DNA of 59,735 nucleotides from Rubritalea marina DSM 17716 (GTDB lineage Bacteria > Verrucomicrobiota > Verrucomicrobiia > Verrucomicrobiales > Akkermansiaceae), in assembly GCF_000378105.1 (NCBI RefSeq), contig NZ_KB899261.1, forward strand, positions 1 through 59,735. Reading direction: 5' to 3'. Position numbers and translations under genes: made by a program. The notes beneath the pieces were generated by a model. It ran no database searches. It was given only the letters and a program-made list of their open reading frames with translations, and had not been told where the DNA came from. Below, piece by piece: positions 5,250 to 9,476 of this stretch (within the stretch, counting starts at the first letter, position 1; every line of letters starts with the position of its first letter).

Positions 5250-6890
5250 CTACCCAATAAAACTCTGCACGAGAGGCATGCGACGCGAGATTCCAAAGGC
5301 GCGAGAAGTGACGCGAATGCCAGGGGCGCAATGGTGACGCTTCCATTCGTTAAGATCCACCTTGCGCTGCACCCAGCGCACCGTGCTCTCGTCGTAGCCA
5401 TGATTCTCAATAATCACTTCTGCTGGAAGTTGGTAGAACATGTAAAGGTTCAAAATCAAATCCAAGATCACATAAGGTGGGGCAAGTTCCTTCCCATATC
5501 GGTGCAGGCGTTTCGAGTGTTTCTCTTCCTGCTCGATCGCCGTCAGGTCCAGCACATCCTGCTTAGCGGCCATGTGTCTTGCTAGCTTGTGCACGATCAC
5601 CTTCGGCACATCACTGAGCACGGCTAAGCCTTGAGTATCCTCGCCTCCAACATAGAAATGGCCGACACTTAGATCGGTCTTATTCGCAGTGGAGAGGATG
5701 AGATACTTATTGTTGCGCGCATAGGCCATCATCAACATGGCGCGGATTCGAGCAGACATACCTTCATCCACCAATGGATGCTCGATCTCTTCCATCAGTT
5801 CCTTGCTAGCCAGCAAGGCGGAGTCCTTCACCTGATGGATCGGCACGACTTTGTGCTCAATGCCCAAGCGTTTGGCGACCTGGTACCCAGCATTTTCCTG
5901 ATCATTCATTTCAAAGCCCTCGCTGTAGGTGATGCCGATCACCTTATTCTTTCCCAGGGCGTCCACAGCAAGACTCGCAGTGAGCGAAGATTCGATAGAA
6001 CCATTCATCGAAACCACCACCTTCTCAAATCCAGCCTTCCGCGTGTAGTCCTTGATTCCCATGACCAAGGCTCGTGAAATATCCTCCACATCGGCACTCC
6101 GCGCCATGGGTTCATTGCTCCCTTTGGCATCAATATCGATCACCTTGTAACAAGCTTTAAAGCCCGGTAAATTCGCGATTTCTTTGCCTTCAGCATCCAG
6201 CACGAGTGAATTACCATCAAAGACAAATTGCTCATTCATCCCTACAGCATTGCAGCACACTACCGGCGCATTAGCACCACAGGCTACCACTTCCATTAGG
6301 CTAGAACGGTTCTTCGGCACTCCCTTGAAAAAGGGTGATGCAGAGATGTTAAAGATCACATCCACCCCATCCTGCTTTAGCTCGGCGATCGGATCGCGAT
6401 CATAGGAGGGCCGGCGGATAAAATCATCCATCCAAATATCTTCTCCAATTGTCAGGCCAATGCGCTTACCGCCATATTCGAATGCTTCACACTTCGCTGA
6501 TGGCTCAAAGTAGCGGCTCTCATCAAAGATGTCATAGCTAGGTAGCAAGGTCTTGAATGCCTTATGCTTGATTCCCCCATTGTGTAAAAATGCTGCTGCG
6601 TTGCGCAGTGGGCGGCCAGGGGCCTCGAAGTCGTGGTAATCCACATACCCTACGATCAACGGGATTTCCCCAATCTCATCAGCGAGGTAATCCAGCGCCT
6701 GATGGCACTGGCGCACGAAGGTCTTCTTGGTCACCAAATCTCTTGGAGGGTACCCTACTAACGAAAGCTCAGGCGTCAGCACAATATCCGCGCCAGCGTT
6801 GATGCAAGCCCGGTAAGCCTGCAAGATTCCCTTCGCGTTACGGGGGAAATCGCCAACAATAGAATTCATCTGTGCTATACCAATCTTCAT
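5250..6890 (-). CDS. NadE-like two-domain protein with both active sites degenerate (probable pseudoenzyme)
   Basis: 546 residues, the usual length of glutamine-dependent NAD+ synthetase: nitrilase-type glutaminase domain (about 1-260) plus NAD synthase domain (about 270-546). The glutaminase Glu (E41, TPELSLVGYPPRDL) and Lys (K113) are present, but the nucleophilic Cys of the family's C-E-D-x-W motif is Gly149 (TIGEDIW). The ATP-pyrophosphatase loop SGGxDS reads NGSIES (residues 296-301). The ENxQxR motif reads EGMSAR, the GNKSE..GY..YGD motif reads ANKTD..GH..VGGED, and the PPSAEL...D.DSLPPY block is reduced to ELAPPY. The frame is intact, with no stops or shifts. The scaffold identity is clear; loss of catalysis is inference. 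It is the last gene of a tight unit behind the CPBP protease. Confidence 0.85.
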   Translation of the reverse strand: MKIGIAQMNSIVGDFPRNAKGILQAYRACINAGADIVLTPELSLVGYPPRDLVTKKTFVRQCHQALDYLADEIGEIPLIVGYVDYHDFEAPGRPLRNAAAFLHNGGIKHKAFKTLLPSYDIFDESRYFEPSAKCEAFEYGGKRIGLTIGEDIWMDDFIRRPSYDRDPIAELKQDGVDVIFNISASPFFKGVPKNRSSLMEVVACGANAPVVCCNAVGMNEQFVFDGNSLVLDAEGKEIANLPGFKACYKVIDIDAKGSNEPMARSADVEDISRALVMGIKDYTRKAGFEKVVVSMNGSIESSLTASLAVDALGKNKVIGITYSEGFEMNDQENAGYQVAKRLGIEHKVVPIHQVKDSALLASKELMEEIEHPLVDEGMSARIRAMLMMAYARNNKYLILSTANKTDLSVGHFYVGGEDTQGLAVLSDVPKVIVHKLARHMAAKQDVLDLTAIEQEEKHSKRLHRYGKELAPPYVILDLILNLYMFYQLPAEVIIENHGYDESTVRWVQRKVDLNEWKRHHCAPGIRVTSRAFGISRRMPLVQSFIG

Positions 6891-6926: not shown

Positions 6927-7688
6927 CTACCACAATCCATATTGCTGGAACGCTAGCGCATAAATGCCCATGAGCAAATTTGCCACGGCATGCATCACCA
7001 CGCAAGCCGCGAGGCTTTTTGTACGGATCGCCAACCAATACATCAGCGACCCAAATACCAAGGCACCTAAATAATCTTGTGGTTGGTGGATCAGCATAAA
7101 GAGCACCGTGGTTGCCAAATAGCTCTTCCAATGCGCCTTACCGAAGGGTTGTTTCCAATAGTCACCATCTGGATCCAACACAAAACGCATCAAAAAACCA
7201 CGCCAGAAAAGCTCCTCCACAAACGCCACCACGACTGCTGCTCGCAAGAAGCGGAACACCGTCGAACTCCAATAGCCCACGGCACCAAACTCTTCTTTCA
7301 ACACACCTGGATCGAAGCCATCGTCGCGATTCACCACGCCAAGCTTTTCCCACCATCCACCATCCGCTAGCTCCAGCTGTCCATGTAACCACGATGGTAG
7401 AATCCACAGTGCAATCCCAACGATGCCCAATAGCACCCCAAGGCCCCAGCCTTGCAGTGGACGGAATGCGTAATTACGCCAGAACCAAATGATCAAGGCG
7501 CCTACAGCTAGCGTCTGTAGCGGGTACATCCACTGTGCAGGCCACTCACGCCACCACGGAGCTTGAGGGTGTGCCCACTCGAGCCCCGCTCCATTCACGA
7601 CATCCATCAGCAATCCTAGAACCATGAATGCCGCCAACGGCACCACATAGGCTAGAGTCTTGTTGCTGCGAATCTCGCTCAGAGTCAT
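6927..7688 (-). CDS. CPBP-family intramembrane metalloprotease (exosortase-associated CAAX-protease-like)
   Basis: 253-residue multi-pass membrane protein with the Abi/CPBP motifs: EELFWRG (E-E-x-x-x-R), a second-motif histidine in LIHQPQDYLGALVFG, and HAVAN near the C-terminus (H-x-x-x-N). The N-terminal half, with a conserved YVVPLAAFM segment and several hydrophobic helices before the motifs, resembles the CAAX prenyl protease-related group found in genomes with PEP-CTERM/exosortase sorting; this subfamily call is from memory. Its ATG comes one base after the aminotransferase stop, so translation is probably coupled. Substrate unknown. Confidence 0.85.
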   Translation of the reverse strand: MTLSEIRSNKTLAYVVPLAAFMVLGLLMDVVNGAGLEWAHPQAPWWREWPAQWMYPLQTLAVGALIIWFWRNYAFRPLQGWGLGVLLGIVGIALWILPSWLHGQLELADGGWWEKLGVVNRDDGFDPGVLKEEFGAVGYWSSTVFRFLRAAVVVAFVEELFWRGFLMRFVLDPDGDYWKQPFGKAHWKSYLATTVLFMLIHQPQDYLGALVFGSLMYWLAIRTKSLAACVVMHAVANLLMGIYALAFQQYGLW

Positions 7689-7689
7689 C

Positions 7690-8859
7690 TTATTTGAGGG
7701 TCTCTACAAATTGCTCCATGCGGTCCATCGCAGTCACAATTTCCGCCATCGAGGTTGCATAACAACAACGCAAAAAACCTTCACCACATGCACCAAAAGC
7801 ATCTCCGGGGACAGCTGCTACCGAAGTAGCTTCCAGCAATTGCATAGCAAATTCCTTACTAGTCAGCCCAAGGTGCCCGACCTCTGGGAATACATAAAAC
7901 GCGCCACCAGGGGTGTGACACGGAAGCCCCATCGCATTCAGACGCTTCACCATGTAGTCGCGACGTTGGTGGTAGCTTTGCTTCATCTCAGCCACCGCCT
8001 CAGCACCATTTTGTAGCGCCTCAATCCCCGCAGCCTGGCTGGTGATTGGGGCGCAAAGCATCGAGTACTGGTGAATCTTCATCATCGCCTCAATCAATGG
8101 TTGAGGCGCACAGGCGTAGCCCAAACGGAAGCCCGTCATCGCAAATGCCTTGGAAAACCCATGCAGCAATACCGTACGCTCCTTCATTCCAGGAAGACTG
8201 GCTATGGAAAGGTGCTCAGGGTCGTCGTAGCGCAACTCGCTGTAGATCTCATCAGTGATCACCATGAGGTCATGCTTCTGACAAAGCTCGGCAATCTCCT
8301 CAAGATCCTCGCGCTCGATCGTAGCTCCGGTCGGGTTCGTCGGGAAGTTGAGCATCAACACGCGCGATTTCGGTGTGATCACCTTCTCCAGCTCTGACGC
8401 TTTAAGGCTAAAGCCGTCGTCCTTATGCGTCGAAACAGAGACCGCCTTACCGTAGGCCATCGCAATGCTCGGACTGTAGGAAACGTAGCATGGCTCGTGA
8501 TAGATCACCTCATCCCCAGGGTTCAACATGGCGCGCAGCGCAAGGTCAATCGCCTCACTCACGCCCACAGTCACCAAGACCTCGCGCTCTGCCGCGTAGG
8601 ACACATTGAAAAACCCCTCAACATACTCGGCAATCAACTTGCGCAGCTGAAGTAATCCTAGGTTCGAGGTGTAGCTGGTTTGGCCACGTTCGAGTGAATA
8701 AATCGCGGCTTCACGAATATTCCACGGCGTGCGGAAGTCTGGCTCGCCCACGCCGAGCGAGATCACATCATCGCGCCCTTGTACCAATTCAAAAAAATCG
8801 CGAATCCCAGATCGAGGGATTGCAGCCACCTGATCGGCAATAACTGTTGAATAATCCAT
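7690..8859 (-). CDS. PLP-dependent class I/II aminotransferase (AlaT/YugH-like)
   Basis: 389-residue fold-type I aminotransferase. The PLP lysine lies in HGFSKAFAMTGFRLGY, the PLP-phosphate region follows the TVGVSEAIDLALRA helix, and NFPTNPTGA and YACAPQ are typical of the aspartate/alanine/aromatic group. It follows an Lrp/AsnC regulator by 7 bases. The same pairing occurs in the alaR-alaT (yugG-yugH) operon of Bacillus subtilis, where the enzyme is an alanine transaminase, so alanine is a reasonable but unproven substrate. The next gene (CPBP protease) starts one base after the stop. Confidence 0.92.
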   Translation of the reverse strand: MDYSTVIADQVAAIPRSGIRDFFELVQGRDDVISLGVGEPDFRTPWNIREAAIYSLERGQTSYTSNLGLLQLRKLIAEYVEGFFNVSYAAEREVLVTVGVSEAIDLALRAMLNPGDEVIYHEPCYVSYSPSIAMAYGKAVSVSTHKDDGFSLKASELEKVITPKSRVLMLNFPTNPTGATIEREDLEEIAELCQKHDLMVITDEIYSELRYDDPEHLSIASLPGMKERTVLLHGFSKAFAMTGFRLGYACAPQPLIEAMMKIHQYSMLCAPITSQAAGIEALQNGAEAVAEMKQSYHQRRDYMVKRLNAMGLPCHTPGGAFYVFPEVGHLGLTSKEFAMQLLEATSVAAVPGDAFGACGEGFLRCCYATSMAEIVTAMDRMEQFVETLK

Positions 8860-8866
8860 TGCCTAT

Positions 8867-9352
8867 TTATGGTGAAACAACAAGGCGGCCCTCTGGCTCA
8901 TCTTGCTCAAAAATAAATCCATTCTCTTTGTAGGTCTTGAGTCGAAAATGAGTCGCGGTGGAGAGCACCCCATCGATCGTACTCAGCTTCTCGCTAACAA
9001 AGCGCGCCACCTCCATCAAACTTGGCCCCTTCACCACCACCATTAGATCATAGCCACCACTCGCCAAGAAGCACGATGACACTTGGTCAAAACGTGCAAT
9101 GCGCATGGCCAAGCGATCAAAGCCTCCTCCTCGCTCTGGGGTTAGCTTCACCTCAATGAACGCTGCCACTCGATCGTCACCCGCCTGTTCACGGTTAATC
9201 ACCGTGTGATAACCAAGGATGGTACCATCTTTTTGCCAATCAGCCATCTGATTAGCAACTTCCTGCTCGTCCTTCTTCAATAGCTCGGCGAGCTCCTGAT
9301 GGGAGAATCGGGCATTCTGAGCGAGTAGCTCTAATAGTGGGTCAATTGCCAT
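8867..9352 (-). CDS. Lrp/AsnC-family transcriptional regulator
   Basis: 161 residues from the ATG at 9352 (MAIDPLLELLAQNARFS). An upstream TTG at 9373 would add 7 residues and is less likely. The N-terminal winged helix-turn-helix (about 1-60, FSHQELAELL..) and C-terminal RAM/ACT-like effector domain (about 65-150, AFIEVKL...GGYDLMVVVKG) are in the family order. These proteins sense amino acids and usually control adjacent genes. Here it heads a unit with an aminotransferase, a CPBP protease and the NadE-like protein. No clear operator palindrome was found upstream. Confidence 0.93.
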   Translation of the reverse strand: MAIDPLLELLAQNARFSHQELAELLKKDEQEVANQMADWQKDGTILGYHTVINREQAGDDRVAAFIEVKLTPERGGGFDRLAMRIARFDQVSSCFLASGGYDLMVVVKGPSLMEVARFVSEKLSTIDGVLSTATHFRLKTYKENGFIFEQDEPEGRLVVSP

Positions 9353-9476
9353 GATGCTTTTTGGTGTAACCAATCACCCAGTCTTTGCCAACCTCGCATC
9401 CTAAAAAAATCTATTTTCTGCAAAATTCAGATCCGTGCTAGATTCTGTTTGTCTTCAATCCTAGATCCACAGCCCC

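Follow-up and report, generated by a model that had tools for sequence, protein, structure and literature searches.

A probable pseudoenzyme derived from a short glutamine-dependent NAD synthetase in Rubritalea marina

The gene, its altered motifs and its predicted fold

The DNA analyzed here (the window) is a stretch of 59,735 nucleotides from Rubritalea marina DSM 17716 (contig NZ_KB899261.1). The reverse strand carries, at 5250..6890 (-), an open reading frame of 546 codons with an ATG start and zero internal stops, the product of which resembles in sequence the short glutamine-dependent NAD synthetase (NadE2). The CN_hydrolase (PF00795) and NAD_synthase (PF02540) domains are both matched above the Pfam cut-offs, in the same order and at the same overall length as in NadE2. 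With the domain boundary that we chose, between residues 262 and 263, the nitrilase-fold glutaminase domain (residues 1-262) occupies 6105..6890 (-) and the ATP pyrophosphatase-like synthetase domain (residues 263-546) occupies 5253..6104 (-). The neighboring genes, named by recognition of their translations, encode a CPBP-type membrane protease-like protein (6927..7688, (-)), an aminotransferase (7690..8859, (-)) and an Lrp/AsnC-type regulator (8867..9373, (-)).

Alignment with relatives reveals changes in several catalytic motifs. The alignment column of residue 149 contains Cys in 108 intact forms and Gly in the window protein (codon GGA, 6444..6446, (-)), so the C-E-K triad is incomplete, with E41 and K113 kept. 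The ATP loop, [ST]GGxDS in the same 108 forms, reads NGSIES at residues 296-301 (5988..6005, (-)); ENxQxR is replaced by EGMSAR (residues 376-381; 5748..5765, (-)) and YGD by GGE (residues 415-417; 5640..5648, (-)), and the PPSAEL...DxLPPY segment is lost (residues 456-473; 5472..5525, (-)), in a region modeled as a low-confidence loop. The protein of Rubritalea profundi has the same Gly149, with NGNIES, QGVSSR and GGD, respectively, in the three other motifs. The original prediction, made from the letters and translations of this DNA, had described a NadE-like protein with both catalytic centers lost, and rereading the sequence confirms its positions for the Gly149 codon (6444-6446) and NGSIES (5988-6005), the changes in ENxQxR, YGD and PPSAEL..DSLPPY, the retention of E41 and K113, and the conserved domain order and intact 546-residue frame. 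From family knowledge and these motifs, we infer that both the glutaminase and the NAD synthetase activities are absent.

The window protein scores 427.7 against the full-length equivalog model PRK13981 (NF010588; cut-off 479), compared to 452.2 for the R. profundi protein and 606.2 for the canonical congener L008, although this cut-off is a weak test given that the motif-intact long NadE of the same genome also falls below its nearest cut-offs. The window protein passes the cut-off of TIGR00552 (nadE) with 87.7 against 63.65, higher than that long NadE (78.6), which is a warning for annotation.

The losses are unevenly distributed between the two halves. At positions that do not vary among 46 comparison sequences, the window protein keeps 43 of 45 residues in the glutaminase domain and 35 of 66 in the synthetase domain, the 31 changed positions of the latter including D300, N377, Q379 and Y415. 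At positions conserved in at least 98% of the 108 intact relatives, the contrast is 49/53 versus 41/84 (Fisher p 4.6e-8, in a test that disregards the non-independence of positions). The R. profundi form keeps 49/53 and 48/84 and the intact L008 keeps 52/53 and 74/84, the latter indicating that Rubritalea proteins in general change a little more quickly in the synthetase half. Within the glutaminase pocket, 13 of the 14 tallied positions are kept, C149 being the sole loss. Ten of the 14 correspond to pocket residues of the tuberculosis enzyme named in the accessible part of PMC6946656, which map, via the 6ofc alignment and, for the Cys stretch, via motif offset, to E41, Y47, K113, Y119, F122, E124, G149, E150, W153 and P186; all of these except the Cys match the intact relatives, as do S183, A184, S185 and R195. 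A derived cysteine, Cys212 (Y212C), is common to the window and R. profundi proteins. For the sensor or scaffold for NAD or amidated metabolites that the original prediction had tentatively suggested, the kept residues favor a putative glutamine or amide pocket over the NAD/ATP site.

The fold of the protein is predicted to be intact. An AlphaFold2 model built from 49 sequences has a pLDDT of 88.2 and a pTM of 0.91, with low confidence at residues 155-159, at residues 461-470 (mean pLDDT 58) and in the C-terminal tail, and among PDB entries it matches 3n05 best (Z 38.0, rmsd 2.4, 497 residues); as most of the aligned sequences are intact relatives, such a model tends toward the family fold whatever the truth. 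The PDB titles among the model matches include nitrilase-fold amidases with a Cys-to-Ala replacement and bound butyramide (4izs), nicotinamide (5ny7) or glutaramide (6ypa), so that, judging from these titles, a pocket of this kind can bind amides without the nucleophile.

Selection and history of the locus in Rubritalea

For the window protein to be a pseudoenzyme, as originally proposed, a normal NadE would have to exist elsewhere in the genome, and a search of the genome (3.01 Mb, 95.5% complete) indeed yielded a long NadE of 661 aa on contig C2 with intact CED, SGGADS, NIQAR and YATMDGD motifs. Two types of glutamine-dependent NadE, an octameric type 1 and a dimeric type 2, are described in PMC7196632; assignment of the long NadE to type 1 rests on its length and family match. 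Against the nearest NCBIfam models it scores 261.4 (cut-off 479) and 208.6 (cut-off 473), and it exceeds the TIGR00552 cut-off; because it falls below these curated cut-offs, its activity, too, is deduced from the motifs.

The same locus in R. profundi SAORIC-165 (genome G005; L066, identical to L007) encodes a protein 65% identical overall to the window protein, with G149, NGNIES and 23 of the 31 window synthetase-domain losses. The presence of these features in a separate genome implies that the dead motifs are not an assembly error. Comparison of the two dead copies gives pS 0.83 (saturated), pN 0.24 and an amino acid identity of 0.65, and the long NadEs of the same two genomes are 0.70 identical. 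By domain, the glutaminase part of the dead pair is 0.74-0.75 identical, above the value for the long NadE, and the synthetase part 0.56. A GY94 pairwise codon model yields omega below about 0.02 (2dlnL 459.5 against omega = 1), a value that is trustworthy just as 'far below 1' because dS is saturated and t is at its bound. As the key losses are present in both copies, this comparison most simply spans the time after those losses. The CPBP row of the codon-model comparison is void because the in-frame stop of the R. profundi match shifted the codons: the neighboring CPBP gene of that species (L299) contains an in-frame TAA within the match, and its open frame spans 213 aa versus 253 aa in the window.

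The dN/dS comparison that had been suggested earlier thus shows strong purifying selection on the window protein. With synonymous sites saturated and protein change constrained, the window gene is not simply a decaying pseudogene; readings as a pseudogene or as a product of sequencing error were set aside because an independent genome has the same losses and pN/pS is low. Neither relaxed selection nor a broken frame, the marks of a pseudogene, is seen: the frame is intact in two species and omega is far below 1. What is seen matches a pseudoenzyme, namely, loss of essential catalytic residues, a fold kept in prediction and purifying selection in a pair with saturated dS. With a motif-intact second NadE in the genome, a dead form in two species, strong selection and a predicted intact fold, the proposal of a retained pseudoenzyme stands, and we consider it highly probable. 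In the tree, a long stem (0.48 changes per site) leads to the two dead forms, suggesting that evolution was fast before it became slow. The idea, raised with the original prediction, of a separate conserved clade in Verrucomicrobia holds for these two Rubritalea genomes (SH-aLRT 100) but not for dead forms at large, which in the tree arose at least twice rather than once.

The window gene shares its gene order with canonical NadE2 relatives, which argues for orthology by locus. Of 80 loci, 11 display the order Lrp-aminotransferase-CPBP-NadE (the canonical L067, L089, L097, L099, L105-L108 and L110, as well as R. profundi and the congener G003); they belong to the genus Rubritalea, to other members of the family and to more distant loci (L105-L108, L110). 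In the remaining 69, some of them ending at contig ends, the complete block is not seen. The CPBP gene adjoins NadE2 in L089, L097, L099, L105-L108 and L110 and, within Rubritalea, in 5 genomes. We take it that the block order is old and that the window gene occupies the old nadE place.

Among the 12 Rubritalea genomes searched (G000, the window genome, to G011), 10 contain a long NadE, and the short gene is found in several states. G008 has an intact short NadE without a long match; G000 and G005 have the doubly dead forms; and G007 has, at the same locus (L037:1501-2901(+)), an open-frame form of 467-468 aa that lost both centers and keeps 24/53 glutaminase and 24/84 synthetase conserved positions. 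In six congeners (G002, G004, G006, G009, G010 and G011), the neighbors are kept, but the fetched 1.4-1.5 kb beside CPBP contain neither a NadE nor a remnant of one at E 1 (as a control, the same profiles find the G007 form), and no short form is seen elsewhere in the genome at E 1e-8; the match of G010 to the short query is its long NadE and was excluded. Neither gene was found in G001, a genome that is 58% complete. The pattern fits a loss of constraint once the long NadE was available, after which most lineages dropped the gene. The six congeners with the neighbors but without the gene imply that keeping it is not forced and, amounting to half of the 12 genomes, that its role is dispensable in the genus. 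Separately, the short NadE of G003 (L036:1501-3147(+)) presents the reverse intermediate, with the triad intact, the loop changed to SGGIGS and a long NadE present, and is perhaps an uncoupled glutaminase. With several stages of conversion at one locus, Rubritalea offers a direct way to test how an enzyme becomes a pseudoenzyme.

Dead forms in Akkermansia and across the family

Matches were obtained from 239 sources, some rows ending at contig ends; after open frames scoring below 100 and identical proteins were dropped, 175 distinct short forms were counted, of which 108 are motif-intact, 65 lack both centers, one lacks the triad only (L200) and one the loop only (L036). The 67 non-intact forms comprise 4 from Rubritalea, 1 from G024 and 62 from Akkermansia (genus g3), the g3 matches of G113, G141, G158, G160 and G166 being outside this count. 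The G024 form (genus g14; L215:325-1818(-)), a doubly dead protein of 498 aa, coexists with a long NadE and has an unsure position in the tree. A single-protein scan of genome contigs found a relative encoded in 0 of 14 stretches.

In Akkermansia, 67 of 76 genomes match the profile of the dead proteins at E <=1e-20, with 0 stops inside the matches, and the 61 distinct doubly dead proteins are mostly of 466-507 aa. A long NadE match outside the short gene is present in 63 of these 67 genomes; three of the other four are at most 87% complete, and the fourth is G098. All eleven g3 long NadEs that were read contain the CED and SGGxDS motifs. Among 55 pairs within the A. muciniphila group, the dead protein has dN/dS values of 0.20-0.55 (between 0.2 and 0.4 in 52 of 55), compared to 0.095-0.255 for the long NadE, and constraint is weaker on the dead protein in 54 of the 55 pairs. 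Across all g3 pairs with dS <0.9, dN/dS is below 0.4 in 47 of 54 (range 0.08-0.67); at dS 0.9-1.2, where the method is unreliable, this is the case in 27 of 83, with values of up to 0.92.

The representative of A. muciniphila ATCC BAA-835 (L260:301-1704(+); G101:C1:196424-197827) is a NadE-derived protein of 468 aa in which both centers are gone. At E 0.01 it has no match in Pfam; against PRK13981 it reaches 46.5 bits over two stretches, of which residues 3-86 score best. This widely studied bacterium thereby has a conserved protein derived from NadE. In G098 (6% contamination), the short form (L200:1447-3033(-)) has lost the glutaminase center and retains an intact SGGVDS loop; in the tree it branches as sister of the dead g3 forms, two queries recovered no other NadE from its genome, and it is perhaps an ammonia-dependent intermediate.

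The Akkermansia forms keep 68% of the conserved positions in the N-terminal 90 residues and 17% in the glutaminase part beyond residue 90. With the pocket mostly lost, amide binding cannot be a function common to both genera, and the Akkermansia proteins probably do something other than the Rubritalea protein does. A single ancient loss, with the dead forms of both genera in one clade, was rejected (AU p 0.000185, in a test on a 27-row quick tree with 9 rows held together, the group having been picked after an earlier quick tree in which the long rows L037, L215 and L266 are of unsure place, and with any long-branch pull carried over into the test). As judged from these trees, the dead forms arose independently in Rubritalea and in Akkermansia, at least twice. 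Likewise rejected was the notion that the short form invariably decays once a second NadE is present: in 18 of the 19 genomes with both a long-NadE match and a short form, the latter is motif-intact, and in the nineteenth (L021) the motifs are intact in the alignment; the long-NadE matches of this set are fragments in G231 and G296 and of a distant kind in G029 and G175.

Candidate functions and known systems

We propose that, with the long NadE serving the genome, the short nadE at its old place would have lost both reactions and stayed as a non-catalytic protein, the glutaminase pocket of which, complete but for the nucleophile, would bind but not split glutamine or some other small amide; the altered synthetase half might hand the occupancy of the pocket on to a partner. 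Retention under selection without chemistry implies that binding or contact remains, and a non-hydrolyzing receptor of glutamine or an amide is our first choice because the part preserved in Rubritalea is the glutamine pocket and its fold. The best explanation, an old short nadE kept as a pseudoenzyme with a ligand-binding pocket, has in our judgment an even chance of being right; the specific mechanism, glutamine or an amide in the cysteine-less pocket, is a more tentative suggestion from sequence, with somewhat less than an even chance. The window protein may act as a sensor. The pocket could instead be retained for folding or for an old domain contact.

The main rival is a scaffold or regulatory partner, a dead protein kept for contact with another protein, such as PII or another enzyme, with a small ligand being irrelevant. 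It owes this rank to PMC7196632, where PII binds type 2 NadE, an enzyme that also carries an allosteric site for NAD+, and to the presence of PII in the window genome, one of 11 of the 12 Rubritalea genomes searched that encode it. However, PII is found also in congeners lacking the gene, and its presence was therefore discarded as a non-discriminating explanation. The conservation of the first 90 residues even in the Akkermansia forms is compatible with a contact role, but in Rubritalea the pocket beyond residue 90 is kept as well, and we consider a contact-only role rather unlikely. The kept E41, K113, E124 and E150, together with the derived Cys212 common to R. profundi, could hint at a nitrilase-fold domain that employs another nucleophile in a new reaction, but nothing puts Cys212 in the pocket and Gly stands in the place of the nucleophile in both species, making a new enzyme improbable.

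Slow decay after the takeover by the long NadE, with the gene caught before stops appeared, would account for the half-dead, doubly dead, shrunken (468 aa) and absent states within the genus, for the poor conservation of the G007 form and for the long stem of the dead pair, but it is at odds with the excess of pS over pN and with the full length and domain-specific retention in both species, and is very improbable. Still slightly less credible is that the window protein remains a NAD synthetase with odd motifs, perhaps an ammonia-dependent one: its TIGR00552 score exceeds that of its own genome's long NadE, and L200, a related form with a lost glutaminase center and an intact synthetase loop, is the sole NadE that two queries found in its genome, but 31 of the 66 invariant synthetase positions are changed and a motif-intact NadE is present. 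Returning to the amide receptor, a broader scheme, in which NadE turned at least twice within one family into a selected non-catalytic protein, in Rubritalea a cysteine-less glutamine receptor that would report the nitrogen state to NAD metabolism via PII or the long NadE, and in Akkermansia (A. muciniphila among them) a conserved protein with some different role, is speculative and, taken as a whole, distinctly unlikely.

No description of a doubly inactive NadE appears among the literature matches listed, a scope outside which fall most subscription papers and all bioRxiv preprints, and the accessible part of PMC3376133 contains neither 'inactive' nor 'non-functional'. The case would be one of a bifunctional housekeeping enzyme that apparently lost both reactions yet persisted, one of its pockets being conserved in all but the nucleophile. 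Pseudoenzymes are best known as proteins in which one reaction was lost.

The closest known system is the dimeric type 2 NadE2-Gln (nearest structures 3n05, 4f4h and 5kha), with which the window protein shares domain order, length and predicted fold (Z 34.5-38.0), along with the locus and neighbors of the canonical relatives, and from which it differs in lacking the catalytic Cys and SGGxDS, in the changed ENxQxR, YGD and PPSAEL and in the PRK13981 score under the cut-off. The long NadE (octameric type 1) is distantly homologous in both domains but is about 650-680 aa long and has intact motifs; a member of this length class lies at another locus of the same genome. The NadE-derived proteins of Akkermansia are similar in that both centers are gone, the frames are intact, purifying selection is evident and a long NadE is present alongside in most, but they are of independent origin, shorter and devoid of the glutaminase pocket. 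Glutaminase-dead amidotransferases, such as vertebrate CPS1, likewise lost the nucleophile of a retained amide-hydrolyzing domain. In CPS1, however, that domain belongs to another fold family and the synthetase half is still active, whereas in the window protein both halves look dead.
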